NCBI RefSeq assembly: GCF_026011735.1
Contig: NZ_BRVN01000008.1
Span: forward strand, 1-64,000
Origin: Dietzia sp. NCCP-2495
GTDB lineage: Bacteria; Actinomycetota; Actinomycetes; Mycobacteriales; Mycobacteriaceae
Length of the DNA stretch: 64,000 bases
Direction: 5' to 3'
The notes below the pieces were generated by a model. The model searched no databases. It saw only the letters and a list, made by a program, of their open reading frames with translations, and had not been told where the DNA came from. Each line of letters opens with the position of its first letter. The first letter of the stretch is position 1. Position numbers and translations under genes: made by a program. Positions 559 to 42,290 of this stretch are shown one piece after another.

Positions 559-576
559 AGAAGCGAGTTCAATTCA
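559..576 (-). promoter_or_regulatory. regulon operator, site 1
   Basis: On the minus strand this reads TGAATTGAACTCGCTTCT, a close match to the window-wide consensus TGAATYGAACTNRGTTCA. It starts 3 bases after the -10 hexamer, covering the predicted transcription start of the 594 operon, and also lies upstream of the divergent gene ending at 29. Confidence 0.7.
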
Positions 577-593
577 ACAGGAAGGAAGCGGAC

Positions 594-977
594 ATGGTTG
601 ACAGCAGCCGCGAGGTCCGGGCGACCTCTGAGATGAAGATCCACGACGGGGTGGACAGCGACCAGCTCCGCTCGGTCGTCACGCAACTCGCCTCGAGTAC
701 GGAGGCCGAAGGCGATCACCTGTACGGGCACAACTTCTACGTCGACGATGCGGCGGGGATCCTCTTCGCTCACGAGCACTACCGGGACGCCGACGCGTTT
801 CTGCAGCACCTCAAGGAGATGGACCAGGAGGTGGTGGGTGCGCTCATGTCGAAGGTCGACGTCCTCGACCTCCGGATCTACGGGTCCATCAACGACGAGC
901 TCCGCGGGCTGCTCGAGGGGTTCGGCTCCGTCCGCACCTTCGACTACGTCGGCGGATTCACCAACCGGGGGGCGTGA
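594..977 (+). CDS. dimeric alpha+beta-barrel (ABM/EthD-like) protein
   Basis: Predicted 127-residue cytoplasmic protein resembling antibiotic-biosynthesis-monooxygenase-like dimeric alpha+beta barrels: the central stretch GHNFYVDDAAGILFAHEHY and the following DADAFLQHLKEM helix fit the fold. The ATG at 594 follows a good ribosome site (GGAAGGAAG, 580-588). It is the first gene of the P450 operon and its stop overlaps the GTG start of the P450 (GTGA at 974-977), implying translational coupling. Small proteins of this fold often accompany P450 clusters, as EthD does with EthB in ether degradation. Its exact role (accessory protein or enzyme) is unknown. Confidence 0.7.
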   Translation: MVDSSREVRATSEMKIHDGVDSDQLRSVVTQLASSTEAEGDHLYGHNFYVDDAAGILFAHEHYRDADAFLQHLKEMDQEVVGALMSKVDVLDLRIYGSINDELRGLLEGFGSVRTFDYVGGFTNRGA

Positions 978-2254
978 TCGTGACCACCGATTTCCAGTAC
1001 GAGAAGTTCTTCGGTCTCGACGCGGAGCAGTTGAAGTGCCCGCACACCGCCTTCGAGGAGGTCCGGTCGGAATGTCCGGTCTCCCGTAGTGACGCCCTGG
1101 GCTTCTGGGTCGTGGCCGACCACGAGAACGCGCAGAAGGTGTTCAAGGACGCGAAGGTGTTCTCCACGAAGAAGATGCTCGGCGAGCAGGTGTCCGACGA
1201 GTGGCAGCGTCTGGTGGACCTGGCTTCCCAGCGTCCTGGCGCCAAGGAGGAGCTCGGTGAGGACTACGGCACGAGTGATCGGAAGGTGCTCCTGTTCGCC
1301 GACCCGCCGGAGCACGGACACCACCGCAAGCTGATCATGGGGGCGCTCACGCCCAACGCCCTGAAGTCCTGGGCTCCCAGGATTGAAGAGACCGCGGACA
1401 TCTTCGTGGGCGGTATCACCGCCGGCGAGGAGGTCGAGTTCGTGGACGGGTTCGCGAACAAATACACGATGACCGTCATCGCCGACATTCTCGGATTCCC
1501 GCGGGACATGGTGCCGCAGATGCTCGACTGGACCGAGGGTTTCAACTCGATGGTCGGTAATCCGGACCAGACGGACGAACAGATCGAGGCGCTCGTCGAC
1601 ACCCGCTACGGATTTGACGTCTACTGCAACCGGCAGATCGACGACCGGATCGCCGCTCCGACGGAAGACCTGATCTCCCGGATTGTGAAGCTCAACGCCG
1701 ACAGTGACGCACCGCTCGGCAGGGACGACCTGTTCCAGGTCATCCAACTGTCGATGGTGGGCGGAAGCGAGACCTCGGCGACCGCGCTGTCGAAGATGAT
1801 CGAGTTCCTCGGCAAGAATCCCGAGATGTGGGCCGAGCTCAAGGCCGACACCGCGCGGATTCCCGCCTTCATGGAGGAGATGCTGCGGATGTACTCGCCG
1901 GTTCAGGGGTCGTTCCGTGGGGTCACGGAGGATGTCGAACTCGGCGGTCAGCAGCTCAAGGCCGGGGACATGCTCTGGGTGGGAATGGGCACGTCGAACC
2001 GTGACCCGAAGGTGTTCGACGACCCGGACCGGATGGACATCGACCGAGAGCGACTCGCCGCCACGCACGTGGCTTTCGGCGGGGGTCCGCACGTGTGCCC
2101 GGGGACCTCGCTGACGCGGATGGAGCTGCGGTTGATGCTCGAGAAGCTCATCACCGGCTTCTCTGGCGTCGAGCTGGTCGATTCCGATCCGGCATCCAAG
2201 CAGAGCTTCAACTTCTACGGACCTGCCGCACTGCCGGTCCGCTTCATCGCGTAA
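974..2254 (+). CDS. cytochrome P450 (first of two)
   Basis: Soluble bacterial class I P450 of 426 residues. It has the I-helix acid-alcohol pair GGSET (Glu about 266), the K-helix ExxR (EEMLR near 301-305) and the heme loop FGGGPHVCPG with the thiolate Cys at about 375. It starts at the GTG overlapping the previous stop; a second GTG at 980 is possible. Electrons probably come from the ferredoxin at 4908 and the reductase at 5110 in the same region. Sequence features alone do not assign a CYP family or substrate; the neighbourhood suggests hydroxylation of an alicyclic or branched hydrophobic compound. It is followed by a 108-base gap with nothing recognisable before the EthD gene. Confidence 0.93.
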   Translation: MIVTTDFQYEKFFGLDAEQLKCPHTAFEEVRSECPVSRSDALGFWVVADHENAQKVFKDAKVFSTKKMLGEQVSDEWQRLVDLASQRPGAKEELGEDYGTSDRKVLLFADPPEHGHHRKLIMGALTPNALKSWAPRIEETADIFVGGITAGEEVEFVDGFANKYTMTVIADILGFPRDMVPQMLDWTEGFNSMVGNPDQTDEQIEALVDTRYGFDVYCNRQIDDRIAAPTEDLISRIVKLNADSDAPLGRDDLFQVIQLSMVGGSETSATALSKMIEFLGKNPEMWAELKADTARIPAFMEEMLRMYSPVQGSFRGVTEDVELGGQQLKAGDMLWVGMGTSNRDPKVFDDPDRMDIDRERLAATHVAFGGGPHVCPGTSLTRMELRLMLEKLITGFSGVELVDSDPASKQSFNFYGPAALPVRFIA

Positions 2255-2362
2255 CAGCCGCACGGCACCCGCGGCGCGCCCAGCGCGATCTTCGCGCCCG
2301 GATCGCTCAACGCCGATGGAGTGTCCCGTCGGCGCAGACACCACACGAAAGGACCTCACACC

Positions 2363-2731
2363 ATGGTCAACGTCGAGAATCAGCCCGTATACCTGTTCGC
2401 CCTGTACCGCTGGTCGGGCACCTCGCCCGAGGAGTTCCGCGAGCACTACCTGGAGAAGCACGCCGACATCGGCAAGTCGATCCCAGGTGTGGCGTGGTGG
2501 CACACCTTCCTCAACAACAATCCGATGATGAACTGGGGGATCCCGGAGGGGGCGCCCAAGCCGGATGCATTCTCGATCATGGCCTTCGAGTCCGAGGAAG
2601 CACTGAAGAAGGCGCCGGAGAGCGAAGGGTGGGCAGCGGCCAACAGCGACAACACGGGCTTCGTCCAACACATCGACGTCTACGAGGTCTCGCGGGTCCA
2701 GCTCGTGTCCGAGAGCCTCTCTCAGTCGTAG
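2363..2731 (+). CDS. EthD-domain protein
   Basis: Predicted 122-residue EthD-family dimeric alpha+beta barrel. The diagnostic order is visible: a short strand (YLFALYRW), TSPEEFREHYLEKHADIGKSIPG, then an acidic segment ending AFSIMAFESEEALKKAPES. The ATG at 2363 is preceded by GAAAGGA (2346-2352). EthD is required with P450 EthB for alkyl ether oxidation in Rhodococcus ruber, though its chemistry there is unclear; here it directly follows a P450, so an accessory role to that enzyme is the reasonable guess. Transcription probably ends at the hairpin 2765-2793. Confidence 0.8.
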   Translation: MVNVENQPVYLFALYRWSGTSPEEFREHYLEKHADIGKSIPGVAWWHTFLNNNPMMNWGIPEGAPKPDAFSIMAFESEEALKKAPESEGWAAANSDNTGFVQHIDVYEVSRVQLVSESLSQS

Positions 2732-2764
2732 TCGCAGCCGGGCCCAGGTGAGTCGGGCCCACGA

Positions 2765-2793
2765 GGGGGTCCGGGAGATTCTCCCGGGCCCCC
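2765..2793 (+). terminator. hairpin terminator after the EthD gene
   Basis: Thirteen-base-pair stem, GGGGGTCCGGGAG (2765-2777) against CTCCCGGGCCCCC (2781-2793), with one G-U pair and a 3-base loop, followed by TTC. The rest of the 2732-3060 gap holds the promoter and operator of the next gene and no convincing ORF. Confidence 0.65.
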
Positions 2794-2988
2794 TTCGACG
2801 TGTGTGTCCGTCCGAGAGGGGGTCGAGTGACACGCACCGAAGTGGACGTTCGTGTACTGCCTGCCGCATCAACCGTGTGACACGCCGAGCTGCACCGATT
2901 CATGAATGGGCTCAGTTTTACATTTGGCCTGCGCAAACGGCAGCGACGGGCGAGATATGAGGAAGTCAAAGTATTTGCCGAATGTGCC

Positions 2989-3017
2989 TTGCATCACTGT
3001 GTGGCCATGGTTACAGT
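2989..3017 (+). promoter_or_regulatory. promoter of the second P450 operon
   Basis: TTGCAT at 2989-2994, 17-base spacer, TACAGT at 3012-3017. Transcription should begin near 3024, at the edge of operator site 2. Confidence 0.55.
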
Positions 3018-3026
3018 GGTCCCTAA

Positions 3027-3045
3027 TCAACTTCAGTTCAATTCG
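3027..3045 (-). promoter_or_regulatory. regulon operator, site 2
   Basis: Minus-strand reading CGAATTGAACTGAAGTTGA: it matches the consensus left arm GAATTGAACT and has one extra base before the right arm, the same 19-base variant as site 11. It starts 9 bases after the -10 hexamer TACAGT and 16 bases before the ATG at 3061. Confidence 0.6.
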
Positions 3046-3060
3046 AAAGAGAGGCGCACG

Positions 3061-3531
3061 ATGAGTGACGAACTGCGGAGCAAGAACCTGGAGCTGGTGC
3101 GGGCCTACACCGACGCGCTGAACAAGTGGGACATCGACACGATGCGTGAGATGTCTACCGAGGACGTCGTGTTCGAGCTCCCCTTCCGGCCGCCGACATT
3201 CGAGCGCGAAACGGCCGGCCGGGCGAACTACATGGAGGTGCTGGGGCAGGCCCGGGACCACATGATCGACGGTTCCGAGAACCTGCACGACATGACCCTG
3301 GACACGCTCGCGAGCGATCCGAACGTCGTGATCGCCACCTACAAGAGCGACATGACGCTCCGCAGCGGTACCCGGTACGCGAACGAGTACATCTCCCGCT
3401 TCGTGATCCGCGACGGCAAGGTGGCCCGCTTCGTCGAGTACTACGACTCGATCAAGCTCTTCACCGCCCTCGGCGGCTCGCTCGTCGAGGCCGGCGAGAA
3501 CGAGCTGCTCCCCGAGGGGCTCAAGTCCTGA
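3061..3531 (+). CDS. SnoaL-like (ketosteroid-isomerase-fold) protein
   Basis: Predicted 156-residue NTF2-fold protein: helix NLELVRAYTDALNKWDIDTM, then MSTEDVVFELPFRP, and the C-terminal strand pair YISRFVIRDGKVARFVEYYDS, which is the usual SnoaL end motif. The ATG at 3061 follows GAGAGG and lies just after operator site 2, so the longer upstream reading frame would run through the promoter and is rejected. It is first in an operon with P450, ferredoxin, reductase and aldehyde dehydrogenase. Probable isomerase or hydratase acting on an oxidised intermediate; no residue-level assignment is possible. Confidence 0.8.
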   Translation: MSDELRSKNLELVRAYTDALNKWDIDTMREMSTEDVVFELPFRPPTFERETAGRANYMEVLGQARDHMIDGSENLHDMTLDTLASDPNVVIATYKSDMTLRSGTRYANEYISRFVIRDGKVARFVEYYDSIKLFTALGGSLVEAGENELLPEGLKS

Positions 3532-3598
3532 CCCCGCTGCCGGCGTCGCCGGCGACCTCTCTCCCCGAACCCTCTCTACACCCCTAGGAGTACCTCTC

Positions 3599-4858
3599 AT
3601 GGGTAAGGCCCTGCCTGATCCCGACGCCGTCGTCGCCGATCAGCCGAAGTGCCCCTTCGTCGACATGTGGTCCGACGAGTACAACGAGAACAACCTCGAG
3701 ATCCTCAAGCACCTGCGCGAGGAGCACGATCTGGCGTTCCACAAGCAGGGGAACACAACCGTCCCGCTGGTGACGCGCTACAAGGACATGTGGAAGATCC
3801 AGCGTGACTGGCGGACCTTCCAGTCCGGACGTGCAGCCTCGCACCTCGCGGACCGACGCTACGACGATCCCAATGACACCCCGACGTTCATCCCGCTCGA
3901 CACCGACCCCCCGGTGCACAGCGAGTGGCGTCAGATCATCGAGCCCCTCATGACCCTCAAGAAGATGGAGGCGCACTCCGAGATGATCGACGGGATCGCC
4001 GACGATCTGCTCAGCGGGCTCAGTGGGCGCACCCGGTTCAAGGTCATGAGCGAGTTCGTCCGACCGCTGCAGGCCAGGGCGATCTTCGCCGCGATCCTCG
4101 GGGTCCCGGCCGACAGTGACCGGATCATCCAGTTCTCCGAGTGGGCGCAGGACGCGCTGATCGTTCCCGAGCGGGCGGTCGAGGCGTTCGGAAAGCTGTC
4201 CGGCGCCCTCATGGAGATCCTCCAGGAGCGTCGTGCCAACCCCCGTGGCGACGACGACGTGGTGACCGTCCTCGCCAACTGCCGTCCCGGTGGTGAGGTT
4301 CCCGAGGACGGCGACCTGATCAAGATCATGATCGCGCTGACCCTCGGTGGGCTGGAGTCGACCGGCACCGTGCTCAGCGGAACGATCCACCACATGGCCA
4401 CCCACCCCGACGACCTCAAGGAGCTCCAGGGCGACATGTCCCTGCTCGACGAGGCGATCGAGGAGGCGCTCCGACTTTTCGTCAACGTCACGCTCACGCA
4501 GCGGACGGTGACCAAGGAGACCACCCTCAACGGGTACGACCTCAAGCCCGGTGACAAGATCTGGAATCTTCCCGGATCGGCCAATCGTGACGAGACCGTG
4601 TTCCCGAACGGCGACGCCTGGGACGTCCACCGTGAGAACAAGCGGCACGTCTCGTTCGGCGCCGGAATCCACCGCTGTCTCGGGTCGAACCTCGCCCGCA
4701 TCTTCCTCCGGGTGGCCTTCACGGCAGTCCTCACCCGGATGCCCGGTATCGCCCTGGTCCAGGGGCAGACCATCAAAACCCACTCGATGCCGACCCGCGG
4801 CTTGACCGAGTTCGAGGTCACCGTCGACGAGATCTCGCCTGCTGCCGCCGCCGGCTGA
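3599..4858 (+). CDS. cytochrome P450 (second of two)
   Basis: P450 of 419 residues with K-helix ExxR (EEALR), heme loop FGAGIHRCLG (thiolate Cys about 360) and an I-helix reading GGLEST: the conserved acid is Glu (about 253) and the conserved Thr is replaced by Ser (about 254), which may alter proton delivery. Start ATG at 3599 with TAGGAG at 3585-3590. It lies between the SnoaL gene and the ferredoxin/reductase genes, so it is the most direct electron acceptor of that pair. It differs clearly from the P450 at 974, suggesting two separate oxidations rather than recent duplication. Confidence 0.93.
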   Translation: MGKALPDPDAVVADQPKCPFVDMWSDEYNENNLEILKHLREEHDLAFHKQGNTTVPLVTRYKDMWKIQRDWRTFQSGRAASHLADRRYDDPNDTPTFIPLDTDPPVHSEWRQIIEPLMTLKKMEAHSEMIDGIADDLLSGLSGRTRFKVMSEFVRPLQARAIFAAILGVPADSDRIIQFSEWAQDALIVPERAVEAFGKLSGALMEILQERRANPRGDDDVVTVLANCRPGGEVPEDGDLIKIMIALTLGGLESTGTVLSGTIHHMATHPDDLKELQGDMSLLDEAIEEALRLFVNVTLTQRTVTKETTLNGYDLKPGDKIWNLPGSANRDETVFPNGDAWDVHRENKRHVSFGAGIHRCLGSNLARIFLRVAFTAVLTRMPGIALVQGQTIKTHSMPTRGLTEFEVTVDEISPAAAAG

Positions 4859-4907
4859 CGCACCGGACGAGCACAGCGGGAACGACGCACTCCAGAAAGG
4901 ACTCATC

Positions 4908-5102
4908 ATGAAGGTGAAGATCGACCACGAATTCTGTGTCGGCCACGCGCGCTGCTTCGCGCTGGAGCCCGACTACATCGCCGAGGACGAGCGCGGACGC
5001 GGCGTCGTCCGTGAGGACGCGCCCGAGATGTCGGCCGAGACGGCGCGCCGCCTGGTCCGGGCCTGCCCGGAATCCGCGATCTCGATCGTGCGGGAATCCT
5101 GA
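4908..5102 (+). CDS. [3Fe-4S] ferredoxin
   Basis: Sixty-four-residue single-cluster ferredoxin of the P450-partner type. Three ligand cysteines are visible: C10 and C16 in CVGHARC and the last in RACPE near residue 54. The position between the first two that would hold a fourth Cys is His/Ala, as in [3Fe-4S] actinobacterial ferredoxins. It sits 49 bases after the second P450 and 7 bases before the reductase gene, so it likely shuttles electrons from the reductase to one or both P450s. Confidence 0.92.
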   Translation: MKVKIDHEFCVGHARCFALEPDYIAEDERGRGVVREDAPEMSAETARRLVRACPESAISIVRES

Positions 5103-5109
5103 GGCGACA

Positions 5110-6111
5110 ATGACCATGGTTCAGGACCCTTTGCGCACCGGGATCGTCGACCCGGGCGAGGACGCGGGCGGAGACGCGACGATCGATGCGGTGGTCGAGC
5201 GCCGACGCGATCTCGCCGAGGGCGTCATCGAGCTCGTTATTCGAGCTGCCGATCGTAGTGATCTGCCCCGCTGGGAGCCCGGCGCCCATGTGGACATCGT
5301 CCTCGACGACGGTGAGATCCGGCAGTACTCACTATGTGGGGATCCGTCGGACCGCACTACGTACCGGGTGGCGATTCTGCTCGAGAATGAGGGGAGGGGA
5401 GGATCGCGGCGCATTCACGCCGATCTTCAGGCCGGGACGCCGCTGACCCTGAAGGGTCCGCGAAACCACTTCCCGCTCCATGATTCCCCTCGCTACCTGT
5501 TCATCGCGGGTGGGATCGGTGTGACGCCACTGATCCCCATGATGCGCGCGGTGGAGGCGGCCGGTGCCGAGTGGCGGTTCGTCTACGGCGGCCGGAATGA
5601 GTCGACGATGGGATATGTCGACGAGCTGCGAGAGATGGGCGACCGCGTCACGATCTGGCCCGAGGACGCGAACGGACTCATCGACCTCGACGGTCTCCTC
5701 GGAACCGCGGAGGAGGGCACGCTGGTCTACAGCTGTGGGCCCGAGCCCCTCCTGGCCGCGGTCGAGGAGCGGTGTGTGTCGTGGCCCAGCGGAGCATTGA
5801 ATATCGAGCGGTTCACCGCTGTCGACATCGACACCTCTGCTGATACCGGCTTCGAGGTCGAACTGGCCCAGACCGGGATCACGGTCCAGGTGTCGGCCGA
5901 GCAGACGATCCTCGAGGTGGTCACCGACGCAGGTGTCTACGTTCCGACGTCGTGCACCGAAGGAACGTGTGGTTCCTGCGAGACCCCGATCCTCGAGGGG
6001 ACCGCGGAGCATCGCGACGTCGTCCTGTCCCCGGAGGAGCAGGACGCCCAGGAAACGATGATGATCTGCGTCTCCCGGGCCTCCTGCCCGCGCCTCGTGT
6101 TGGATCTGTAG
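5110..6111 (+). CDS. phthalate-dioxygenase-reductase-like oxidoreductase
   Basis: Three-domain flavin/iron-sulfur reductase of 333 residues: flavin-binding RQYSL (71-75), NAD-binding GGIGVTP (134-140), and a C-terminal plant-type [2Fe-2S] domain with CTEGTCGSC (Cys 282, 287, 290) and Cys 320. The order is that of PDR/VanB-type reductases, not the FAD-only ferredoxin reductases usual for P450s. The ATG at 5110 is chosen because the frame upstream overlaps the ferredoxin gene. Having its own [2Fe-2S] domain, it could reduce the ferredoxin or a P450 directly. Confidence 0.92.
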   Translation: MTMVQDPLRTGIVDPGEDAGGDATIDAVVERRRDLAEGVIELVIRAADRSDLPRWEPGAHVDIVLDDGEIRQYSLCGDPSDRTTYRVAILLENEGRGGSRRIHADLQAGTPLTLKGPRNHFPLHDSPRYLFIAGGIGVTPLIPMMRAVEAAGAEWRFVYGGRNESTMGYVDELREMGDRVTIWPEDANGLIDLDGLLGTAEEGTLVYSCGPEPLLAAVEERCVSWPSGALNIERFTAVDIDTSADTGFEVELAQTGITVQVSAEQTILEVVTDAGVYVPTSCTEGTCGSCETPILEGTAEHRDVVLSPEEQDAQETMMICVSRASCPRLVLDL

Positions 6112-6173
6112 CACCGAGCGACATCGGCCGGCCGTCCTGGCATCACCCTTAATCACTCACATCAGGAGGAACA

Positions 6174-7736
6174 ATGCTCCCCAGGAGCTACAGCGAGTTC
6201 TACATCGACGGACAGTGGCGGCCGACCGAATCGACCGAGAAGTTCACCGTCGTGTCCCCGTCCACCGGTGAGGCGATCGGCGAGGTCCCGCGCGCCACTC
6301 GCGCCGACATCGATGCCGCCGTCGAGGCGGCCCGTCGGGCGTTCTACGAGACCGACTGGGCCGACCGGCCTGTCGAGGAGCGCGCAGCGCTGTGTGAGGC
6401 ACTCGCCACCCGGCTCTACGAGGTCAAGGACGAGATGGCCGAGCTGCTCGTGGACGAGCTCGGGTGCACCCGGATGCTCGCGGACGTCTACCAGGCGGTG
6501 GCTCCGACATTGCACTGGAACTACAACGCCGAGGTCGGACGGACGTATCCGTTTCAGGAAGTGCGCAAAGCGGACCTCGGGCCGCTCGCCGGAGGGTCCG
6601 CCGGCGGCATGATCATGCCTTACGAGACCCAGGCACTCGTGGTCAAGGAGCCGGTCGGGGTGGTGGCGACCATGGTCGCCTACAACTTCACCATGCCCGG
6701 GACGTCGCAGAAGGTCGCCCCGGCGATCGTGGCGGGCTGCACTGTGGTGGTCAAGGTTCCCGAGCCCAATCCGCTCGCGGTGTTCGCTCTCGGCCGGTTG
6801 ATCGACGAGGTCGGATTCCCTCCCGGTGTGATCAACATCGTCGCCGCGGGCCCGGACGAGTCAGCTCACCTCGTGTCGCACCCCGACGTGGACATGGTCA
6901 GCTTCACCGGGTCAACCACCGTGGGGTCCCACATCGGCCGCGAGTGTGGATCGCTCATCCGCCCGGTGGTGTTGGAGCTCGGCGGGAAGTCCGCCGCGAT
7001 CGTCCTCGACGACGCCGACCTCGACACCACCGTGCCGACCCTCCTGGGAGTCAGCGTGATTCCCAGTAGCGGGCAGAGCTGCGTGTGCCAGAGCCGCTTC
7101 CTGGTGTCCGAGGCGCGGCACGACGAGCTGGTGGAGCGACTGGTCACGGCCATGGCGGATATCAAGGTCGGCGACCCGCACGCCTCCGACACGGACATGG
7201 GGCCGCTGATCACCAAGGCACACCGCGAACGGGTGCTGGGGATGATCGAGCGAGCCGTCGAGCAGGGCGCGAAGGTCGCATTCGGTGGCGGCGTTCCCGA
7301 GGGGCTGGATGCCGGCTGGTATGTCGAGCCCACGCTGTTGGTCGACGTGACGCCGGACATGGAGATCGCACAGGAGGAGGTGTTCGGCCCGGTCGTCGCC
7401 GTGCTCAAGTACACCGACGAGGACGACGCGGTGCGGATCGCCAACGACAGCCGCTACGGTCTGGCGGGATCGGTCTACACGACTGATGTGGAGCGTGGAT
7501 TCAAGCTTGCGCGGAAGGTGCGCACCGGCACCTTCTCAGTCAACTCCTTCTCGGCGGACTTCAACTCCCCGTTCGGCGGATTCAAGGAATCGGGCATCGG
7601 GCGTGAGCACGGAGTGGCCGGTCTGGAGGGTTACCTGATCCCCAAGACGATTTCGGTCGACCCGTCGATGTCCATCCCGGACTCTGTTGTCGAGCAGGCG
7701 GATGTCGTCACCACCGGCGCCCGCAAGGGGGCCTGA
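6174..7736 (+). CDS. NAD(P)-dependent aldehyde dehydrogenase
   Basis: ALDH-superfamily enzyme of 520 residues. Motifs in order: the catalytic Asn region VAYNFTMPG, the cofactor loop FTGSTTVG, the general-base ELGGKSA, and the nucleophile in GQSCVC (Cys about 303). The start at 6174 has a perfect AGGAGGA (6164-6170). As last gene of the P450 operon it probably oxidises an aldehyde, formed from a P450-made alcohol, to the carboxylic acid that a CoA ligase then activates. An insertion-like stretch rich in Gly/Ala (LAGGSAGGMI) precedes the catalytic Asn region. Confidence 0.92.
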   Translation: MLPRSYSEFYIDGQWRPTESTEKFTVVSPSTGEAIGEVPRATRADIDAAVEAARRAFYETDWADRPVEERAALCEALATRLYEVKDEMAELLVDELGCTRMLADVYQAVAPTLHWNYNAEVGRTYPFQEVRKADLGPLAGGSAGGMIMPYETQALVVKEPVGVVATMVAYNFTMPGTSQKVAPAIVAGCTVVVKVPEPNPLAVFALGRLIDEVGFPPGVINIVAAGPDESAHLVSHPDVDMVSFTGSTTVGSHIGRECGSLIRPVVLELGGKSAAIVLDDADLDTTVPTLLGVSVIPSSGQSCVCQSRFLVSEARHDELVERLVTAMADIKVGDPHASDTDMGPLITKAHRERVLGMIERAVEQGAKVAFGGGVPEGLDAGWYVEPTLLVDVTPDMEIAQEEVFGPVVAVLKYTDEDDAVRIANDSRYGLAGSVYTTDVERGFKLARKVRTGTFSVNSFSADFNSPFGGFKESGIGREHGVAGLEGYLIPKTISVDPSMSIPDSVVEQADVVTTGARKGA

Positions 7737-29498: not shown

Positions 29499-29876
29499 AT
29501 GTCCCAGAACGAGAATCAGAACCCGCAGTTGCGGGGGAGTCGGTGTGGAGACTGCTCGACGGTGGCGTTTCCCGCGTCCGTGAGCTGTCAGCGCTGTGGC
29601 GGTTCCGACACGACCGAGATCGACCTGTCCGGCACCGGCACGGTGTGGACCGCGACGATCCAGCGTTTCGCGCCCAAGTCGCCCCCGTACGTCCCGCCGG
29701 CCGACGGGTTCCGCCCCTTCGGGGTGGGGTACGTCGAGCTCCCCGAGGGCGTCAAGGTGGAGGCCCTCCTCGACGGGGACTCGCCCGCCGAGCTCATCGG
29801 CAGCGAGGTCGTGTTGGTCGAGTCCCATCCCGTGCCGCGGTTCGCCACGGTCGCGGCCACCCCGAAGGAGAACTGA
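29499..29876 (+). CDS. DUF35 zinc-ribbon/OB-fold protein
   Basis: Predicted 125-residue DUF35 protein: N-terminal rubredoxin-like zinc ribbon (CGDC and CQRC) followed by an OB-fold (GTGTVWTATIQRFAPKSPPYVPP, PFGVGYVELPEGVKVEALLDG). DUF35 proteins act as partners of thiolase-like enzymes; in steroid side-chain degradation a DUF35 domain is required with the aldolase Ltp2. The ATG at 29499 has AGGAG upstream, and the stop overlaps the next gene by one base, supporting a one-to-one complex with the thiolase-like protein at 29876. Confidence 0.9.
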   Translation: MSQNENQNPQLRGSRCGDCSTVAFPASVSCQRCGGSDTTEIDLSGTGTVWTATIQRFAPKSPPYVPPADGFRPFGVGYVELPEGVKVEALLDGDSPAELIGSEVVLVESHPVPRFATVAATPKEN

Positions 29877-33242: not shown

Positions 33243-33270
33243 CGCAGAACCCGAGAAACGAGAGACGATC

Positions 33271-35255: not shown

Positions 35256-36019
35256 TGGCCACCCCCGCGGACATGTTCGACCTGACCGGCCGTGTGGCCG
35301 TGGTGACCGGAGCGTCCTCCGGGCTGGGGGACGGGTTCGCCCGCACCCTCGCCGCCGCGGGCGCCACCGTGGTGGCCGCCGCCCGCCGTGCCGACCGGCT
35401 CGCCTCGCTCGCGGCTGATCTGCCTGGGCTGGTCCCGGTCGAGTGCGACATCACCGTGCCCGCCGACCGCGAGCGCCTCGTCGCCGTGGCATCGGAGATC
35501 AACGGCGGCGTCGACATCCTGGTGAACAACGCCGGCCGGCCGGGCCCCCCGGACGCGCTGACCGAGAGCGCCGAGGAGTTCGACGACATCCTGCGGGTCA
35601 ACCTCACGTCCGGCTTCCATCTTTCGGTGGCCGCCGTGACGGCACTGCCGGAGGACCGGGGCATGTCGATCGTCAACATCTCGTCGGTGGTCGGCCTCGT
35701 CTCGACCGCCCCGATTGGCGGTGCCGGGTACGCGGCGAGCAAGTCCGCCGTGATCGGCACGACCCGCGAGCTCGCGGGTCAGTGGGGCCGGCGGGGGATC
35801 CGTGTCAACGCGGTGGTCCCGGGCTGGTTTGATACGGAGATGACCGACGGACTGTTCACCAACGACAAGTCCGCCGGGTGGGTGCGCCGCAACTCCATGC
35901 TCGGCCGGGGCGGCAGGGCGGGCGAGGTGGACGGCGCGGTGCTGTTCCTCGCCTCCGACGCCTCCAGTTATGTCACCGGGCACGTCCTCACCGTGGACGG
36001 TGGGTGGACGGCGAGATGA
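35255..36019 (+). CDS. short-chain dehydrogenase/reductase
   Basis: Classical SDR of 254 residues: VTGASSGLGDGFARTLAAAGATVVAAARR, NNAGRPG, IVNISSVVG and YAASKSA. It closely resembles the SDR at 48682 (TGASSGLGAGFARALSSAGATVVLAARR), which sits in the second kinase/ACAD module, so the two modules are paralogous. Arg after strand 2 suggests NADP. The 3-hydroxyacyl-CoA dehydrogenase role of LvaD is a reasonable analogy, not proven. Confidence 0.88.
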   Translation: MATPADMFDLTGRVAVVTGASSGLGDGFARTLAAAGATVVAAARRADRLASLAADLPGLVPVECDITVPADRERLVAVASEINGGVDILVNNAGRPGPPDALTESAEEFDDILRVNLTSGFHLSVAAVTALPEDRGMSIVNISSVVGLVSTAPIGGAGYAASKSAVIGTTRELAGQWGRRGIRVNAVVPGWFDTEMTDGLFTNDKSAGWVRRNSMLGRGGRAGEVDGAVLFLASDASSYVTGHVLTVDGGWTAR

Positions 36020-37095
36020 CGACGACGGCGACGGGTGCGGCTGCCGCGGCGGAACCCCCACTCGAGATGCGGGCCCTGCGGCTCAGCGAGTGGGGCGCGG
36101 CGCCGACCCTCGACCGTGTCCCGGTCCCGCGACCCGGCCCGGGGCAGGTGCTGCTGCGCGTCGACGCCGCGGGCCTGTGCCATTCCGACCTGCACATCAT
36201 GGACGCCGCGCCGGGTGTGCTGCCATACGAGCTGCCGTTCACCCTCGGCCACGAGGTCGTGGGCACGGTCGTCGAGGTGGGCGACGCCGCCGATGCCGGC
36301 TGGCTCGGGAGGAGCTGCGGGGTCCACGGCGTGTGGTCCTGCGGTAGCTGCCGCAAGTGCCTGGCCGGTCGCGACAACTACTGCGTGACCCTCACCGGCC
36401 CCATCGGGTGCGGCACCGGACGCGACGGCGGCCTGGCCGATTACATGCTGGTGCCGTCCGTGCGACATCTCGTCGAGGTGGACGCAGCGGCCGGACCCGC
36501 GGTGGCCCCGTTGACCGACGCGGCTCTCACCGCCTATCACGCGGTCACGTCCCAGCCTGTGGACCCGGCGGGCGCGATCGTCGTGGTGATCGGCGTCGGC
36601 GGACTCGGCCACCTCGCCGTGCAGCTGCTCGCCGCGCGTGAGCCGGCGGTACTGATCGGCGTGGACCCGCGGGCGTCCGCTCGCGAGCTGGCCGTACGAC
36701 TGGGCGCTGACCACGCGGTGGACTCGGTCGACGAGGCCACCGCGCTCGTGGCAGAGCTCGCGGGTGACACCGGTGCCGACCTGGTCATGGACTTCGTCGG
36801 AGCCGCCCCGACGCTGGACAGCGCGTCGGGACTCATGGCGACCGGGGCGACCCTGGTCGTGGTGGGCTCGGCCGGCGGCCATCTCACCGTCGACAAGCAG
36901 GGTTCGCTGCCGCGGGGCTGGCGCGTCGAGGCGCCCTTCTGGGGCCCGCACCGACACCTGCAGGACGTCATGGACCTGGCCTCCACCGGTGCGCTGTCCG
37001 CCGTTGTCGAGACGCGGGGCCTCGATGAGGTCCTGGACGCCTACGAGGACCTGCGACACGGCCGGGCGGCGGGCCGCCTCGTCGTCGTCCCCTAA
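36016..37095 (+). CDS. zinc-dependent alcohol dehydrogenase
   Basis: MDR alcohol dehydrogenase of 359 residues with both zinc sites: catalytic GLCHSD and GHEVVG, structural CGSCRKCLAGRDNYC; cofactor motif VIGVGGLGHLAVQLL. Start ATG overlaps the SDR stop (ATGA at 36016-36019). Unlike the enzyme at 21253 it keeps the structural lobe. It is the last of a tightly overlapping run from 29876. Oxidation of a primary or secondary alcohol intermediate is likely. Confidence 0.92.
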   Translation: MTTTATGAAAAAEPPLEMRALRLSEWGAAPTLDRVPVPRPGPGQVLLRVDAAGLCHSDLHIMDAAPGVLPYELPFTLGHEVVGTVVEVGDAADAGWLGRSCGVHGVWSCGSCRKCLAGRDNYCVTLTGPIGCGTGRDGGLADYMLVPSVRHLVEVDAAAGPAVAPLTDAALTAYHAVTSQPVDPAGAIVVVIGVGGLGHLAVQLLAAREPAVLIGVDPRASARELAVRLGADHAVDSVDEATALVAELAGDTGADLVMDFVGAAPTLDSASGLMATGATLVVVGSAGGHLTVDKQGSLPRGWRVEAPFWGPHRHLQDVMDLASTGALSAVVETRGLDEVLDAYEDLRHGRAAGRLVVVP

Positions 37096-37142
37096 CGCCA
37101 CATCACCCACATTCCCTCACACCATCCAAGGAGAACGCGACC

Positions 37143-38645
37143 ATGAAGCAGCTGGCCCGGGACGTCACCGAACGTGCAACGCGAACCCCCGACGCCATCG
37201 CTGTCGTCGACGGGGAGGGCACCCACACGACCGCCGAGGTGGCCGAGGCCGCCCGCGAACTCGCCCGCGTGCTGGAGGCCGCGACCGACGGCCCCGCCAC
37301 CGTGCTGATCCGCGCCGACAACTCCTGGCGCACCGTCGCCGCCGCGATCGCGGTGGGCCTGACAGGTGGCCTGCTCGGCGTGATGAGCGGACACGCGAAC
37401 AAGTCGGAGTTCGACATCGCGATGGAGGACCTCCAGCCCGATGTGGTGGTGGCCGACGGACCCCTGGGCGAGGTCTGGGACCTGGCCGGGCACGGTTTCG
37501 TCCTCGCCGGCAACGCACTGGCCGGCTGGGAGGTCTACGGGCCGGCCGACAGCTCCTCCCGCGGCGTCGAGCGGTGGAAGGGCGGCGCGGTGGCGGCCAT
37601 GACCTCCGGCTCGACCGGTCGGCCCAAGTGCGTCATCCAGACCGAGGACGCCCTGCGCTACGCCGGACAGTCGACGATCGAAGCGGTGGGACTGGAACCC
37701 GGCGACGCGATCGGTGCGCTCGTCCCGCTGTCCTCCGCCGCGGCCATCTGTTTCGGCATGTACCTGCCCGCGATGCTCGGGGGCGCCATGGTGGCCGACG
37801 CGAAGTGGAACCCGGAGCGCGCCGTCGCGCTCCTGCGGGACAACGCGGTCGCCTGGACGATGCTCGTGCCCACGATGGCGCTGCAGCTCACGCTCGTCGA
37901 CGGTGCCGACGGCGCGCTGTCGGCCATGAAGGCCATGACCGTCGGCGGCGGGCCGATGAACCAGAATTCGCTGCACTCGGCCGAGACCAAGCTCGGGACC
38001 ACGTTCCTGCGGGTGTTCGGCATGTCAGAGGCGCTCGGCCACACCACGCCGCTGCCGGGTGACGACGTCGAGGTGCGGCTCGGGCGCGACGGTCGGCCAT
38101 TCCCGGGAACCGTGTCCCGCGTGGTCGACGAGAAGGGGAACGTCCTCGGCGCCGGCGAGATCGGCTCACTCCAGGTCCGGGGGCCATCTGTGTTCCTCGG
38201 CTACGCGCGCGGGGGCCTGCCCGTCGCGCCCGACGTCACCGAGGACGGCTTCCTCGCCACCGGTGACCGCGCGGTGCTTTTCGACGACGGCTGCGTGAGT
38301 ATCCGGGGCCGCGAGAAGGACCTCATTATCCGCGGCGGCCGCAACATCGACATCAACGAGGTCGAGGCGGCCCTTGCCGGAATCGCTGGCATCCACCAGG
38401 TCTGCGTGGTGCCCGTGCCCGACCCCGTGTTGGGAGAGCGGGCGGCCGCCCTGGTCGTGCCCGACGGTCGCGCGCCCGGTCTGGAGGAGATCCGACGTGA
38501 TCTCGAGGCCGCGGACTTTCCGAAGTTCAAATGGCCGGAGTTCGTGATCGAGGTTGACTCGCTCCCGCAGTCGCGGGTCGGCAAGCTCGACCGTGCGGGT
38601 GCCGCGACCCTCGCGGCCTCGCTCTCCGGCGGCGGAACCGGGTAA
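37143..38645 (+). CDS. acyl-CoA synthetase (AMP-binding)
   Basis: ANL-superfamily ligase of 500 residues: P-loop-like MTSGSTGRPK (near 160), FGMSEALGHTT at the A5 region, TGDRAVL, REKDLIIRGGRNI and the catalytic lysine in SRVGKLDR near the C-terminus. It activates a carboxylic acid to the CoA thioester through an adenylate. GGAGAA precedes the ATG. As the only ligase within the regulon segment it is the best candidate for activating the acid made by the P450/aldehyde dehydrogenase system. Confidence 0.9.
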   Translation: MKQLARDVTERATRTPDAIAVVDGEGTHTTAEVAEAARELARVLEAATDGPATVLIRADNSWRTVAAAIAVGLTGGLLGVMSGHANKSEFDIAMEDLQPDVVVADGPLGEVWDLAGHGFVLAGNALAGWEVYGPADSSSRGVERWKGGAVAAMTSGSTGRPKCVIQTEDALRYAGQSTIEAVGLEPGDAIGALVPLSSAAAICFGMYLPAMLGGAMVADAKWNPERAVALLRDNAVAWTMLVPTMALQLTLVDGADGALSAMKAMTVGGGPMNQNSLHSAETKLGTTFLRVFGMSEALGHTTPLPGDDVEVRLGRDGRPFPGTVSRVVDEKGNVLGAGEIGSLQVRGPSVFLGYARGGLPVAPDVTEDGFLATGDRAVLFDDGCVSIRGREKDLIIRGGRNIDINEVEAALAGIAGIHQVCVVPVPDPVLGERAAALVVPDGRAPGLEEIRRDLEAADFPKFKWPEFVIEVDSLPQSRVGKLDRAGAATLAASLSGGGTG

Positions 38646-38684
38646 CACGGCGTGAGCGGCTGCTATAGCCGATATGGTGTGATC

Positions 38685-38702
38685 TGAAGTCAGTTTTATA
38701 CA
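38685..38702 (-). promoter_or_regulatory. regulon operator, site 10 (TetR autoregulation)
   Basis: Minus-strand TGTATAAAACTGACTTCA, four mismatches to consensus; a -10 hexamer TATGGT at 38673-38678 lies 6 bases upstream. It precedes only the TetR gene, suggesting autoregulation. It is one of the weaker matches. Confidence 0.5.
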
Positions 38703-38740: not shown

Positions 38741-39355
38741 ATGGCGGTCGCGACGAAAACCGAGAGTCCGCGTTCCAAGCGCACGGTCATTCTTGACGCG
38801 GCCGTGGCGCACTTCGGCAGTGTCGGGTACGAACACACCAAGTGGGCGACGGTCGCGCAGGACGTGGGGATCGGCCAGACCGCGCTGTACCACTACTTCG
38901 AGTCCAAGGCGCACTGCCTGCTCACCATCATGAGTTCGGAGCTCGAGCGGTATCGCGAGAGATTCGAGGCCGCGGTCGAGGGTTCGGCCGATGCCGACAC
39001 CGCCCTGCGGGCGGCGGTCGCGAGTGCCTACGACATCACGGAGAGTGAAGCTCTGTCGGCCCGGATCCTCCTCGACCACATCGACATGTTGGCGACGCCC
39101 CGGTCGTCCGCCCGCGAGGAAGAGGTGCGGGTCCGTGCACGCGAGCTGGTGCGCGTGGTGGAGAAGAACTGGAGCGACCTGCTCGGGCGGGGAATGGACT
39201 CGGGGGAGTTCCCGAGGCGCGACGAGAAGGAGCTCGGCCGGTTCGTGCTGGGACTCATCAACTCGGTGTGGAGTTGGTACCGTCCCGGCGGATCGCGGAA
39301 GCTCCCCGAGATCGCGGATTCGGTCACCAGCGCCTGCCTGCGACTGGTGCACTGA
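38741..39355 (+). CDS. TetR-family regulator, candidate master repressor of the regulon
   Basis: TetR regulator of 204 residues. N-terminal helix-turn-helix: KRTVILDAAVAHFGSVGYEHTKWATVAQDVGIGQTALYHYFESK; the rest is an all-helical ligand-binding domain (LSARILLDHIDMLATPRS, RFVLGLINSVWSWYRPGG) similar to the KstR2/PaaR-like acyl-CoA-responsive group. It is the only regulator gene inside the stretch that carries the TGAATYGAACTNRGTTCA sites and has such a site in its own promoter. The ligand is probably an acyl-CoA intermediate; that is inference. Confidence 0.88.
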   Translation: MAVATKTESPRSKRTVILDAAVAHFGSVGYEHTKWATVAQDVGIGQTALYHYFESKAHCLLTIMSSELERYRERFEAAVEGSADADTALRAAVASAYDITESEALSARILLDHIDMLATPRSSAREEEVRVRARELVRVVEKNWSDLLGRGMDSGEFPRRDEKELGRFVLGLINSVWSWYRPGGSRKLPEIADSVTSACLRLVH

Positions 39356-39475: not shown

Positions 39476-39494
39476 TGAAGTGAATTCAAGTTCG
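39476..39494 (+). promoter_or_regulatory. regulon operator, site 11
   Basis: TGAAGTGAATTCAAGTTCG, the 19-base variant also seen at site 2. A TAGTGT hexamer (39469-39474) ends two bases upstream. It controls the EthD/MBL pair. Confidence 0.55.
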
Positions 39495-39502: not shown

Positions 39503-39829
39503 ATGTACAACCTGATCGTCATGGCATCCAGGCCGAGTGAATGGACCCACGAGCAGTTCATCGAGTGGTGGCGCGGCGAGCACGCCGACGTGACCTACCC
39601 ACTGCCCGGGCTGCGTCGCTGGTCCCACACCGCTGTCAAGGAGACCGGTCCCAACCGGCACTCACAGGGGTGGGACGGGGTGTCCGTGCTGTCCTTCGAC
39701 TCGAAGGAGGCGTACGAGGAGATGCTGAAGAGTCCGGAGTGGGCCAAGGCCGCCGAACACGTGGGGTCCATGGGAGGTCGCGCCATCATGGTGATGGGCG
39801 AAGAGCAGATCATGGTCCCGGGACCGTGA
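39503..39829 (+). CDS. EthD-domain protein
   Basis: Predicted 108-residue EthD-family alpha+beta barrel: MASRPSEWTHEQFIEWWRGEHADVTYPLPGLRRW, VLSFDSKEAYEEMLKSPEW. ATG at 39503 with GGAG at 39494-39497; a GTG at 39500 is adjacent. Its stop overlaps the GTG start of the MBL hydrolase, so the two are probably partners. It is the third small protein of this general fold in the regulon. Confidence 0.82.
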   Translation: MYNLIVMASRPSEWTHEQFIEWWRGEHADVTYPLPGLRRWSHTAVKETGPNRHSQGWDGVSVLSFDSKEAYEEMLKSPEWAKAAEHVGSMGGRAIMVMGEEQIMVPGP

Positions 39830-40854
39830 CCTCGCAGGGGTCGGACTGGGCCGAGGTCGGGTGCTACCAGGTGGCCGACTCGGTCTACCGGATCCCCCTG
39901 CCTATGCCGCAGGACGGCCTGCGGGCCATCAACGTCTACGTTGTCCGCGGTGACGAGGGCGTGTCGCTGATCGATGCGGGATGGAACGTCCCGGGAAATC
40001 TGGAGATCCTCCGGGAGGGACTCGCGTCCGTCGGTGCGGCGCTCGAGGACATCACGGACGTCCACGTCACGCATATCCATCGGGATCACTACACGATGGG
40101 GCCCGAGCTGCGCAGACGAGTCGGGTCGCGCATCCACCTCGGCCGCGCGGAGGAGCCCGGACTCACCGTGCTCCGCGACCTGGCGAACGCCGTGCCCATG
40201 GATTCGCTCGAGCAGCTCCGGCGCGGCGGTGCTCCCGGCGTCGCCGAGACCGCCCTGGCCCGGGGGCTCGAGGACGACTGGTTCGAGCGGGACTGGGAAC
40301 TTCCCGACGAGTGGACGGAGCAGGGCCCGGTTTCGGTCGCGGGGCGCGAGATGCGGGCCACCGTGACGTCGGGCCACACCAAGGGGCATCTGGTCTTTGA
40401 CGACACCGGTCTCGGGGTGACCTTCACCGGTGATCACGTGCTGCCACGCATCACCCCGTCGATCGGGTTCGAGCTCGGAGGGTGGGACAACCCGCTCGGG
40501 GACTACCTGACCTCGCTCGCCGCGATGCTGGATCGACCCGATTCGGTCATGCTCCCGGCCCACGGCGTGGTCGGTGGAAGCGTGCACGCGCGCGTGCGCG
40601 AACTGCTCGACCATCACGATTTGCGGCTCGACGCCACCCGTCGGGTCCTGCTCGCGACCCCGGGGGTCACTGGTCTCGGCGTGGCCACCGCGCTCCCGTG
40701 GACGCGCCGGGAACGCCGTTTCTCCGAGCTCGACGACTTCAACCAGATGATCGCGATCTGCGAGACCATGGCGCACCTCGACGTGCTGGTCGCGCGGGGA
40801 CAGGCCACAGTCGACCGGGTGGTGGGCGAGGCGCAGCACTTCATCGCCTCCTGA
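39826..40854 (+). CDS. metallo-beta-lactamase-fold hydrolase
   Basis: MBL-fold protein of 342 residues with metal motif THIHRDHYTMG, distal His in VTSGHTKGH, Asp in FTGDHVLPRITPS and a final His in LPAHGVVGG. The C-terminal helical extension (LDHHDLRLDATRRVL ... FNQMIAICETMAHLDVL) is typical of the group acting on thioesters or lactones. GTG at 39826 overlaps the EthD stop. A thioesterase or lactonase releasing an acid intermediate is plausible, but substrate is not visible. Confidence 0.85.
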   Translation: MTSQGSDWAEVGCYQVADSVYRIPLPMPQDGLRAINVYVVRGDEGVSLIDAGWNVPGNLEILREGLASVGAALEDITDVHVTHIHRDHYTMGPELRRRVGSRIHLGRAEEPGLTVLRDLANAVPMDSLEQLRRGGAPGVAETALARGLEDDWFERDWELPDEWTEQGPVSVAGREMRATVTSGHTKGHLVFDDTGLGVTFTGDHVLPRITPSIGFELGGWDNPLGDYLTSLAAMLDRPDSVMLPAHGVVGGSVHARVRELLDHHDLRLDATRRVLLATPGVTGLGVATALPWTRRERRFSELDDFNQMIAICETMAHLDVLVARGQATVDRVVGEAQHFIAS

Positions 40855-40927: not shown

Positions 40928-41677
40928 TCAGCGTGCGGTCCACCCGCCGTCGGCGTAGACCTCCGCTCCGGTCATGAAGCCGGCGTCGTCGCTGGCGAGG
41001 AACGCGACGCAGCCCGCGATCTCGGCGGGGGTTCCGAGCCGGCCCATGGGGGTGTTGGCGAGCATCCCGCGATGTCGTTCGGATCCCTCGTACCGCTCGA
41101 GTAACTGCAGGGTCTCGATGAAGCCCGGGTGTAGGGAGTTCACCCGGACGCCTTTGGTGGCCCAGTGCAGCGCGGCGTTCTTGGTCATGGTCCGCACCGC
41201 GCCCTTGGCGGCGTGGTAGGCGAAACTGTTGCCGAAGCCGCCGACGCTGCCGAGGATCGAGCACACATTGACGATCGCGCCGCCGCCGGTGCGCTCGATC
41301 GCCGCCCCGGCGTGCTTCATCCCGAGCCATACGCCGGTCTGGTCCACGTCGATCACGCGCTGCCAGTGCTCCGGCGACTCGTCCTCGACAGATTTGATGC
41401 TGCCGATCGCCGCGTTGTTGACCAGGGCGTCGATCCGACCGTGGACCTCGAGGGTGCGCTCAACGGCCGCGATCCAGCCATCCTCCGATGACACGTCGAG
41501 TTCTAGTGCGAGATGACCGCGGGCGGGGAGTGAGGCGGTCAGGTCGGCGACCTGGGAGCCGGCGAGGTCGGCGGCCACGATGACGGCGCCCTCACTGGCG
41601 AGACGTGCGCAGATCTCGGTGCCAATCCCTCCGGTGGCGCCCGTGACCAGGACGATCCGATCGGTGAAGCGTTCCAT
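40928..41677 (-). CDS. short-chain dehydrogenase/reductase
   Basis: Classical SDR of 249 residues: VTGATGGIGTEI, AADLAG (NAD-type Asp), NNAAIGS, IVNVCSILG and YHAAKGA, ending ADGGWTAR. The ATG at 41677 follows GAGAGGG on the minus strand; a longer frame to 41743 would reach the operator and is rejected. It lies downstream of operator site 12 and may also be cotranscribed with the MaoC gene upstream. It resembles 3-alpha/7-alpha-type hydroxy-ring SDRs in length and motifs, but no specific substrate can be given. Confidence 0.88.
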   Translation of the reverse strand: MERFTDRIVLVTGATGGIGTEICARLASEGAVIVAADLAGSQVADLTASLPARGHLALELDVSSEDGWIAAVERTLEVHGRIDALVNNAAIGSIKSVEDESPEHWQRVIDVDQTGVWLGMKHAGAAIERTGGGAIVNVCSILGSVGGFGNSFAYHAAKGAVRTMTKNAALHWATKGVRVNSLHPGFIETLQLLERYEGSERHRGMLANTPMGRLGTPAEIAGCVAFLASDDAGFMTGAEVYADGGWTAR

Positions 41678-41742
41678 GAGTGCCCTCTCGGTAGCGTGCG
41701 ATTCGGCGCGGTGCGGGTGCGGTCGGGACCGCGAGGCGCGCA

Positions 41743-41760
41743 TGAATCGAACTCGGTTCA
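41743..41760 (+). promoter_or_regulatory. regulon operator, site 12, with promoter
   Basis: TGAATCGAACTCGGTTCA, a full match to the consensus. On the minus strand the perfect -10 hexamer TATACT (41765-41760) abuts it, so it covers the start of transcription for the SDR gene at 41677. Confidence 0.75.
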
Positions 41761-41782
41761 GTATACGATGATGGTCCGCAGC

Positions 41783-42244
41783 TCAGGCGGGAAATGCCAC
41801 CATGAGAGCGTCGGCCACGCATGCGGGGGAGTCTTGCCCCTCGATTTCGATCGTGTACCGGACGCAGCCGAGCACGCCGCCGTGATCGATCTCGCGCGTC
41901 CACTCCACACTGCCACGGGCCCGAAGTCGGGAGCCCGGCCGGACGAACGACGGGAACCGCACCTTATCGAGCCCGTAGTTGATCGCCCGACCTGCGGCGT
42001 CGAACGTGAACAAGTCGGAGCTGAGTCGGGGGATCAGTGACAGGGTGAGATAGCCGTGGGCGACGGTGGAGCCGAGCTCTGAGGCGGCCGCCCGTTCCGT
42101 GTCGACATGGATCCACTGGTGGTCTTCGGTGGTGTCCGCGAACGCGTTGATCCGATTCTGGGTGATGGTGAACCAGTCGCCCGCGCCGAGGTCGGTGCCG
42201 GCGGCGTTCTTGAACTCGTCCACGTTTCGGAAGGTGATGGTCAT
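41783..42244 (-). CDS. MaoC-like (R)-enoyl-CoA hydratase
   Basis: Single hot-dog MaoC protein of 153 residues. The hydratase motif is intact: INAFADTTEDHQWIHVD followed by GSTVAHGYLTLSL (catalytic Asp and His). It closely resembles the MaoC at 61317 (VDAFADATGDHQWIHVD, TTIAHGYLTLSLLP), so the two clusters share a related step. It probably hydrates a trans-2-enoyl-CoA to the (R)-3-hydroxyacyl-CoA. Operator site 13 lies 28 bases upstream of its ATG. Confidence 0.92.
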   Translation of the reverse strand: MTITFRNVDEFKNAAGTDLGAGDWFTITQNRINAFADTTEDHQWIHVDTERAAASELGSTVAHGYLTLSLIPRLSSDLFTFDAAGRAINYGLDKVRFPSFVRPGSRLRARGSVEWTREIDHGGVLGCVRYTIEIEGQDSPACVADALMVAFPA

Positions 42245-42272
42245 GAGTGGGTTTGCTCCCGTTTTCGAGTAC

Positions 42273-42290
42273 TGAATTCAGTTCGGTTGC
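42273..42290 (-). promoter_or_regulatory. regulon operator, site 13
   Basis: Minus-strand GCAACCGAACTGAATTCA, four mismatches to consensus. A TAGAGT hexamer on the minus strand (42300-42295) ends four bases before it. It is the last regulon site seen in the window. Confidence 0.6.

Follow-up and report, generated by a model that had tools for sequence, protein, structure and literature searches.

A candidate TetR-controlled regulon for uptake and CoA-dependent breakdown in Dietzia sp. NCCP-2495

We identified thirteen copies of an 18-bp palindromic operator in the first 64,000 nucleotides of contig NZ_BRVN01000008.1 of Dietzia sp. NCCP-2495 (RefSeq assembly GCF_026011735.1); this whole stretch is called the window below. 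The sites are very probably the operators of a single TetR-family repressor, TetR1, encoded within the same cluster at 38741-39355. Our best reading, which is drawn from comparison of sequences, is a FadR/KstR2-like repressor regulon for uptake and coenzyme A (CoA)-dependent breakdown that is widespread and apparently undescribed. About 30 genes would belong to it, given the operon limits that we predict, with close relatives in many soil actinobacterial genera, and all are tied to one testable switch.

An even palindrome repeated thirteen times

The operator is an even 18-bp palindrome, TGAAYTGA-RY-TCARTTCA, with TGAAYTGA as the half-site. All thirteen sites of the original prediction are present, with offsets of at most five bases. 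Its own pattern has 11 matches in the window at up to three mismatches, compared with 0.05 expected. The palindrome TGAAYTGARYTCARTTCA is matched 16 times in the window at up to four mismatches (overlapping registers counted), and these matches cover 12 of the 13 places; the place not covered is the site at 3023, which has five mismatches. Thirty first-order Markov simulations gave a mean of 0 matches to TGAAYTGARYTCARTTCA at up to three mismatches and 0.3 at exactly four. We then built a symmetric matrix from ten of the sites and scored the window with it. At a threshold of 16 bits the matrix returns exactly 13 non-overlapping places, which are the thirteen already proposed and include the three sites outside the training set (Table 1). 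Each of the 24 best-scoring positions in the window, down to 11.2 bits, overlaps one of these places.

The register improves by 4 or 5 bases leftward at four sites (3023-3040, 28557-28574, 38680-38697 and 42268-42285). An extra central base, previously assigned to two sites, is not needed anywhere, and 39476-39493 fits without an insertion. The odd-centred core AAC-NNN-GTT was likewise rejected, as it is held by only 16 of 162 sites (the 13 in the window and 149 distinct sites from other loci). Over these 162 sites A3 and A8, at 96% each, are the strongest of the symmetric positions. The source genome comprises 3.69 Mb in 64 contigs, and a scan at up to three mismatches finds 11 places, 10 of which are inside the window; a backwards-pattern control over the whole genome gave 3 forward matches.

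As originally proposed, all thirteen sites are located in promoter gaps, which make up 10.8% of the window, provided that four gene starts are moved downstream of the start of the longest open reading frame (ORF). The redrawn starts are 3061, 13667 (minus strand), 13808 and 41677 (minus strand). A Shine-Dalgarno-like sequence precedes 3061, 13808 and 41677, and 13808 also matches the position where the proteins of relatives begin, while 13667 is placed by reading frame alone. Each site is separated from the next start codon by 8-65 bases, or by 80 in the case of the outer member of the pair 28557/28613, and a repressor would act from such a position. In two independently annotated Rhodococcus plasmid records, which are close relatives of each other and come from a collection with incomplete gene tables, the sites of at least 17 bits are wholly in gaps (10 of 10 in each).

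The site at 17893-17910 covers eight bases of a short-chain dehydrogenase/reductase (SDR) remnant at 17265-17900, in agreement with the overlap with a pseudogene tail reported earlier. The adh_short match of this remnant begins at profile position 35, and the N-terminus is missing. There is no such SDR between the major facilitator superfamily (MFS) and flavoprotein genes of genome G072, another member of the genus, so the sequence is probably a local remnant.

Co-occurrence and conservation of the sites and TetR1

TetR1 belongs to the Pfam families TetR_N (40.3 bits, cut-off 24) and TetR_C_24 (61.3 bits, cut-off 26.4). Its predicted model is all-helical with a mean predicted local distance difference test score (pLDDT) of 92.6, and its matches are TetR-family structures. 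The fold search places the protein near DarR, PfmR, KstR2, AibR with isovaleryl-CoA and FadR with stearoyl-CoA, and a profile search against solved structures shows a resemblance to PfmR and KstR2.

A scan of genome contigs found 110 relatives of TetR1, of which the best 80 (52-83% identical) were analyzed; their genera include Dietzia, Williamsia, Nocardia, Nocardioides, Rhodococcus, Gordonia, Streptomyces and Pseudonocardia. The 80 loci contain 247 sites of at least 16 bits, compared with 7 on the reversed sequences, and 78 of them have at least one. A site occurs just upstream of tetR in 40 of the 80, just downstream in 59, and in one place or the other in 73 (reversed control, 1).

Because these loci were chosen by their similarity to TetR1, presence and absence across genomes is a fairer test. 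We examined 151 genomes of the family, with a regulator threshold of E 1e-20 and sites counted within two mismatches. The regulator is found in 20 of them (source genome included), and these average 3.95 sites, compared with 0.22 in the 131 genomes without it. Three or more sites occur in 16 of the 20 but in only one of the 131, and any site at all in 17 and 24, respectively. In a class-wide sample (regulator threshold E 1e-40), which shares genomes with the family set and also contains the source genome, all six genomes with the regulator have a site, as do 40 of the 290 without. The four genomes of the genus that lack the regulator have no site match.

The sites are better conserved than their surroundings, being 84% identical to G072 (197 of 234 positions) compared with 54% for the rest of the same gaps (529 of 980). 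Orthologous promoters were read by eye at 14 bits. Sites are found in 13 of 13 such promoters in G072 and in 9 of the 10 still present in G034, where three promoters are absent. The corresponding counts in the stretches fetched are 11 of 11 for G088 and 9 of 11 for G003, the P450 promoters lying outside these stretches. Loss is also informative: three family genomes (G102, G139 and G119) have the regulator but no site within two mismatches, and in none of them is the core enoyl-CoA hydratase matched at E 1e-40. This enzyme is present in the site-bearing genomes G072 (98%) and G036 (85%). With the matrix, two weaker sites are seen in G102 (17.5 and 16.5 bits), and the 20 kb of G139 that were read contain none reaching 14 bits.

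In G102 and G139, both of the genus (loci L109 and L110), an orphan regulator is found beside a serine hydroxymethyltransferase gene, and the intervening catabolic genes are gone except for MaoC in G102.

We considered whether the motif might be just as common inside genes or in unrelated promoters, and the regulon was not refuted. Taken together, co-occurrence, position, conservation and natural loss give strong support to the earlier proposal that the sites would constitute a distinct regulon under the TetR protein at 38741.

Genes under the operators and the proposed switch

Table 1. Operators, putative transcription units and regulator in the window. Scores are from the symmetric matrix; a site marked "untrained" lay outside the training set. 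G-numbers are our handles for related genomes with a site at the same place.
Feature	Position	Strand	Placement or content	Score, conservation or basis
Operator 1	559..576		17 bases before start of gene 594	23.9 bits; same-gene site in G072, G034 (genus)
Operator 2	3023..3040 (earlier 3027-3045)		20 bases before SnoaL-like gene, likely start 3061	19.4 bits, untrained; G072, G034
Operator 3	13691..13708		between divergent SnoaL-like gene (-) and acyl-CoA dehydrogenase gene (+)	26.5 bits; G072, G003, G034, G088; two sites in counterpart gap of an annotated Rhodococcus record
Operator 4	13765..13782		25 bases before acyl-CoA dehydrogenase 1, likely start 13808	26.5 bits
Operator 5	17893..17910		before flavoprotein gene	25.6 bits; G072, G003, G088
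Operator 6	23262..23279		before solute-binding protein 1	27.3 bits; G072, G003, G088
Operator 7	24469..24486		before solute-binding protein 2, ABC permease, ABC ATPase	24.8 bits; G072, G003, G088
Operator 8	28557..28574 (earlier 28562)		80 bases before core CoA operon	26.0 bits; weaker counterpart in G072, G088; none at 14 bits in G003, G034
Operator 9	28613..28630		24 bases before enoyl-CoA hydratase gene	28.6 bits, strongest site; identical 18-mer in G072, G003, G034, G088
Operator 10	38680..38697 (earlier 38685)		43 bases before the regulator's own gene	20.1 bits, untrained
Operator 11	39476..39493		47 bases before metallo-hydrolase gene	17.1 bits, untrained
Operator 12	41743..41760		65 bases before SDR start	26.6 bits; G072, G003, G034, G088
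Operator 13	42268..42285 (earlier 42273)		23 bases before MaoC gene	24.5 bits; G072, G034, G088; none at 14 bits in G003
TetR1, proposed binder	38741..39355	+	TetR-family regulator	TetR_C_24, FadR/KstR2 side
Oxidative front-end (predicted limits)	594..7736	+	small protein, P450, EthD, SnoaL-like, second P450, flavin/2Fe-2S reductase, aldehyde dehydrogenase	Pfam, PDB
Acyl-CoA dehydrogenase 1	13808..14932	+		Pfam; best NCBIfam match IpdE2, below cut-off
Dehydrogenase and reductase genes	17919..23203	+	flavoprotein dehydrogenase, old yellow enzyme (OYE)-type reductase, zinc-type dehydrogenase, SDR	Pfam, NCBIfam
Solute-binding protein 1	23319..24374	+		Pfam
ATP-binding cassette (ABC) importer	24514..28530	+	solute-binding protein 2, fused permease, ATPase	Pfam, NCBIfam
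Core CoA operon (predicted limits)	28655..38645	+	enoyl-CoA hydratase, ChsH2-type OB-fold protein (29394-29876), lipid-transfer-type thiolase, two acyl-CoA dehydrogenases, aminoglycoside phosphotransferase (APH)-type kinase, two SDRs, zinc-type dehydrogenase, acyl-CoA ligase	Pfam, NCBIfam
Metallo-beta-lactamase (MBL)-fold hydrolase	39541..40854	+		Pfam, PDB
SDR dehydrogenase	40928..41677	-	start moved from 41743 to 41677	Pfam
MaoC-like dehydratase	41783..42244	-		Pfam

We propose that, when substrate is lacking, the repressor would sit on the palindromes close before the start codons and block its own gene, the ABC importer, an oxidative front-end with two cytochromes P450, and a CoA-dependent breakdown pathway. 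The ligase whose gene immediately precedes that of the regulator would convert an acid that is imported, or made by the front-end, to its CoA ester. This ester, or one formed later, is the most likely ligand of the regulator and would release it from the DNA. That an acyl-CoA ligase gene occupies this position speaks for a CoA ester as the inducer. The TetR1 model is also similar in fold to the CoA-bound FadR and AibR structures.

The best solved relative of a front-end P450 is a reconstructed CYP125, and the nearest solved structure to acyl-CoA dehydrogenase 2 is Tcur3483, which we take to be a steroid-type enzyme. The presence of an APH-type kinase next to acyl-CoA dehydrogenases is reminiscent of 4-hydroxyacyl-CoA breakdown, and the pairing of a thiolase with an OB-fold protein is reminiscent of the retro-aldol cleavage of branched side chains. 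The substrate is perhaps an alicyclic, branched or 4-hydroxy acid, possibly a terpenoid, and it is plausible that the regulon is directed at one compound.

Most of the core genes are matched in 63-72 of 82 related loci, compared with 46 for SDR3, 41 for the zinc-type dehydrogenase, and 0 and 2 for the two P450s. For nine gene families of the core CoA operon the number of loci with a match ranges from 41 to 68. These counts are best tblastn matches that may include paralogues, and several of the loci are short.

The eleventh place in the genome scan, C10:106938, is on another contig. This intergenic site precedes, by 11 bases, an ORF whose product has the domains ADH_N_2 and ADH_zinc_N (an NADP-type oxidoreductase). 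The counterpart in G072 is 87% identical, also carries a site and is also off the main contig, and in Rhodococcus BH4 a 51% identical oxidoreductase is found inside the cluster, where its gene and a neighbour diverge from a shared gap that holds a site. Plasmid pRHL1 of R. jostii RHA1 encodes relatives of the flavoprotein (62%), the SnoaL-like protein (43%) and the MFS protein (39%). This region (L100:13066-26950) contains five sites of at least 14 bits, beside a luciferase-like monooxygenase gene and parts of another ABC importer. A match to TetR1 was looked for on pRHL1 and not found, which suggests that these sites are controlled from elsewhere in the RHA1 genome.

Operator copies are also seen near DUF1254/DUF1214 genes in G072 and R. 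qingshengii, together with extra solute-binding protein genes (L112:3765-7765 and L102:3444-8365).

We think it somewhat probable that this is a widespread and undescribed actinobacterial regulon in which a conserved CoA back-end, with its own importer and solute-binding proteins, is combined with interchangeable front-ends that were recruited by acquiring the operator, even on other replicons, and that it serves a class of compounds whose breakdown is not yet known. The front-ends would be the two P450s in Dietzia, the luciferase-like monooxygenase on pRHL1, and the DUF1254/DUF1214 proteins elsewhere. The specificity of the operator suffices to pick out unlinked enzymes, and this offers a route to the substrate via the inducer of the promoters. 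Once the inducer is known, the regulator and operator could serve as a biosensor.

No description of the operator or the cluster was recognised in searches of an open-access library that covers few subscription journals, and one may exist elsewhere. Among the papers listed there for terpenes, abscisic acid and steroid-type compounds, none was recognised as describing the cluster. The portion consulted of a Dietzia alkane/pristane transcriptome study (PMC12472514) contained nothing that could be linked to it.

Alternative readings and comparison with known regulators

A second TetR protein in the window, TetR2 (43716-44378), has the same Pfam C-terminal family as TetR1, and its gene is 1.4 kb from the nearest site. 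It is nonetheless very improbable that TetR2 binds the sites, in which case its control would extend also to the ligase, transporter, kinase, SDR and dehydrogenase genes nearby, and we rejected it as the binder. There is no site at its own promoter or at genes 44428-50799. A match to TetR2 occurs in no more than 9 of the 82 related loci, and in some of these the identity is 28-29%, compared with a site adjacent to TetR1 in 73 of 80. Genome G139 retains a TetR2 relative, yet no 14-bit site is present in the 20 kb read. We see hardly any chance that these are steroid-regulon operators of KstR or KstR2 whose consensus has drifted, even though TetR1 resembles KstR2 in sequence and fold and steroid-pathway enzymes are among the relatives of one P450 and one acyl-CoA dehydrogenase. 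No exact KstR (TnnAACnnGTTnnA, as quoted in the original prediction), KstR2 (AnCAAGnnCTTGnT) or BkaR consensus occurs anywhere in the window. The genome encodes a separate KstR on contig C6, which scores 317 bits with a model (cut-off 280) that gives TetR1 39-40 bits. The distinction from KstR that had been drawn earlier therefore holds.

It is also unlikely that TetR1 binds the sites but acts as an activator, or that its inducer is something else than a CoA ester, such as the nucleotide bound by DarR. The lowest-E structural matches are complexes of DarR with cyclic di-AMP (c-di-AMP) and with DNA, one of them titled as dimer-of-dimers DNA binding. However, the sites are in the position of a repressor, the acyl-CoA ligase gene directly upstream of the regulator is matched in 68 of 82 related loci, and PfmR aligns better (rmsd 2.2 A, 31% identity) than the top DarR chain (3.1 A, 23%).

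A number of observations weigh against TetR1 as a repressor of these genes with a CoA-ester inducer. Since the lowest E-values of the fold search belong to DarR proteins, which bind c-di-AMP, the fold does not settle a CoA ester as the inducer. Seven of the 80 related loci have no 16-bit site beside tetR, and L023 and L085 have none at all. Conversely, G097 in the family set and G337 in the class-wide sample lack the regulator and have 3 and 4 matches, respectively. Of the 13 places, a sequence-only profile with a uniform background recovers just 5, with E-values from 0.6 to 2.5. This profile is weaker than the matrix; searched against the source genome it returns 9 rows up to an E-value of 10, every one of them within the window. 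With it, single sites are not significant genome-wide; their clustering is. Given 3 control matches genome-wide, the site before the off-window oxidoreductase gene could be due to chance but for its conservation in G072. Finally, among the NCBIfam matches listed for the catabolic enzymes none attains a curated cut-off, and no pathway is named for this reason; searching the enzymes against Pfam, NCBIfam and PDB did not name one, nor did searches of plasmids and of the literature.

The region at 43716-50799 contains a second TetR_C_24 regulator with a ligase, an MFS-type transporter, an APH kinase, an SDR and an acyl-CoA dehydrogenase, and no operators. In the genomes of the genus that were read, a relative of TetR2 is present in six of six and its ligase in five of six. 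The sequence between MaoC and TetR2 (42298-43681) looks degenerate and includes an ORF on the plus strand (42833-43681) with a match to a LysR substrate-binding domain.

The reading of TetR1 as a CoA-responsive repressor can be compared with several characterized regulators. The Bacillus-type FadR (NF053878) is the best NCBIfam match of TetR1, although at 47.2 bits it falls well below the equivalog cut-off of 200. The folds are similar, including that of the stearoyl-CoA complex 3whc. The Bacillus FadR operator is 18 bp and of the TGAA..TTCA type, and its consensus differs from the operator described here in the inner half-site spacing. Unlike that of Bacillus FadR, the regulon here is not one of general fatty-acid oxidation. 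PfmR of Thermus thermophilus (3vpr) is the best profile match of TetR1 among solved structures, at 86 bits. It has a different operator sequence and targets phenylacetate and fatty-acid genes.

BkaR of mycobacteria, according to the portion consulted of PMC3920632, is an autoregulating TetR repressor of a CoA pathway with the 16-bp core GTTA(N)T(N4)A(N)TAAC. TetR1 resembles it as a proposed repressor of a CoA pathway with putative autoregulation, and differs in that no exact match to the BkaR core occurs in the window. Further mycobacterial TetR motifs are listed in PMC4482099. For KstR2, the sections consulted of PMC3068626 describe a 14-bp motif, AnCAAGnnCTTGnT, which differs from the operator here, with three copies per genome and conservation among actinomycetes; this even palindrome is located 22-82 bp before repressed genes and 285 bp before one judged not to be repressed. 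As far as that source extends, TetR1 and KstR2 are alike in being a TetR repressor, proposed in the case of TetR1, that is embedded in a CoA-dependent catabolic cluster and has an even palindromic operator. The operator here differs in its length of 18 bp, in its 13 local copies with at least one elsewhere, and in its gene set. It shares with the FadR and KstR2 systems an even palindrome close upstream of CoA-metabolism genes, with one copy at the gene of the regulator itself.

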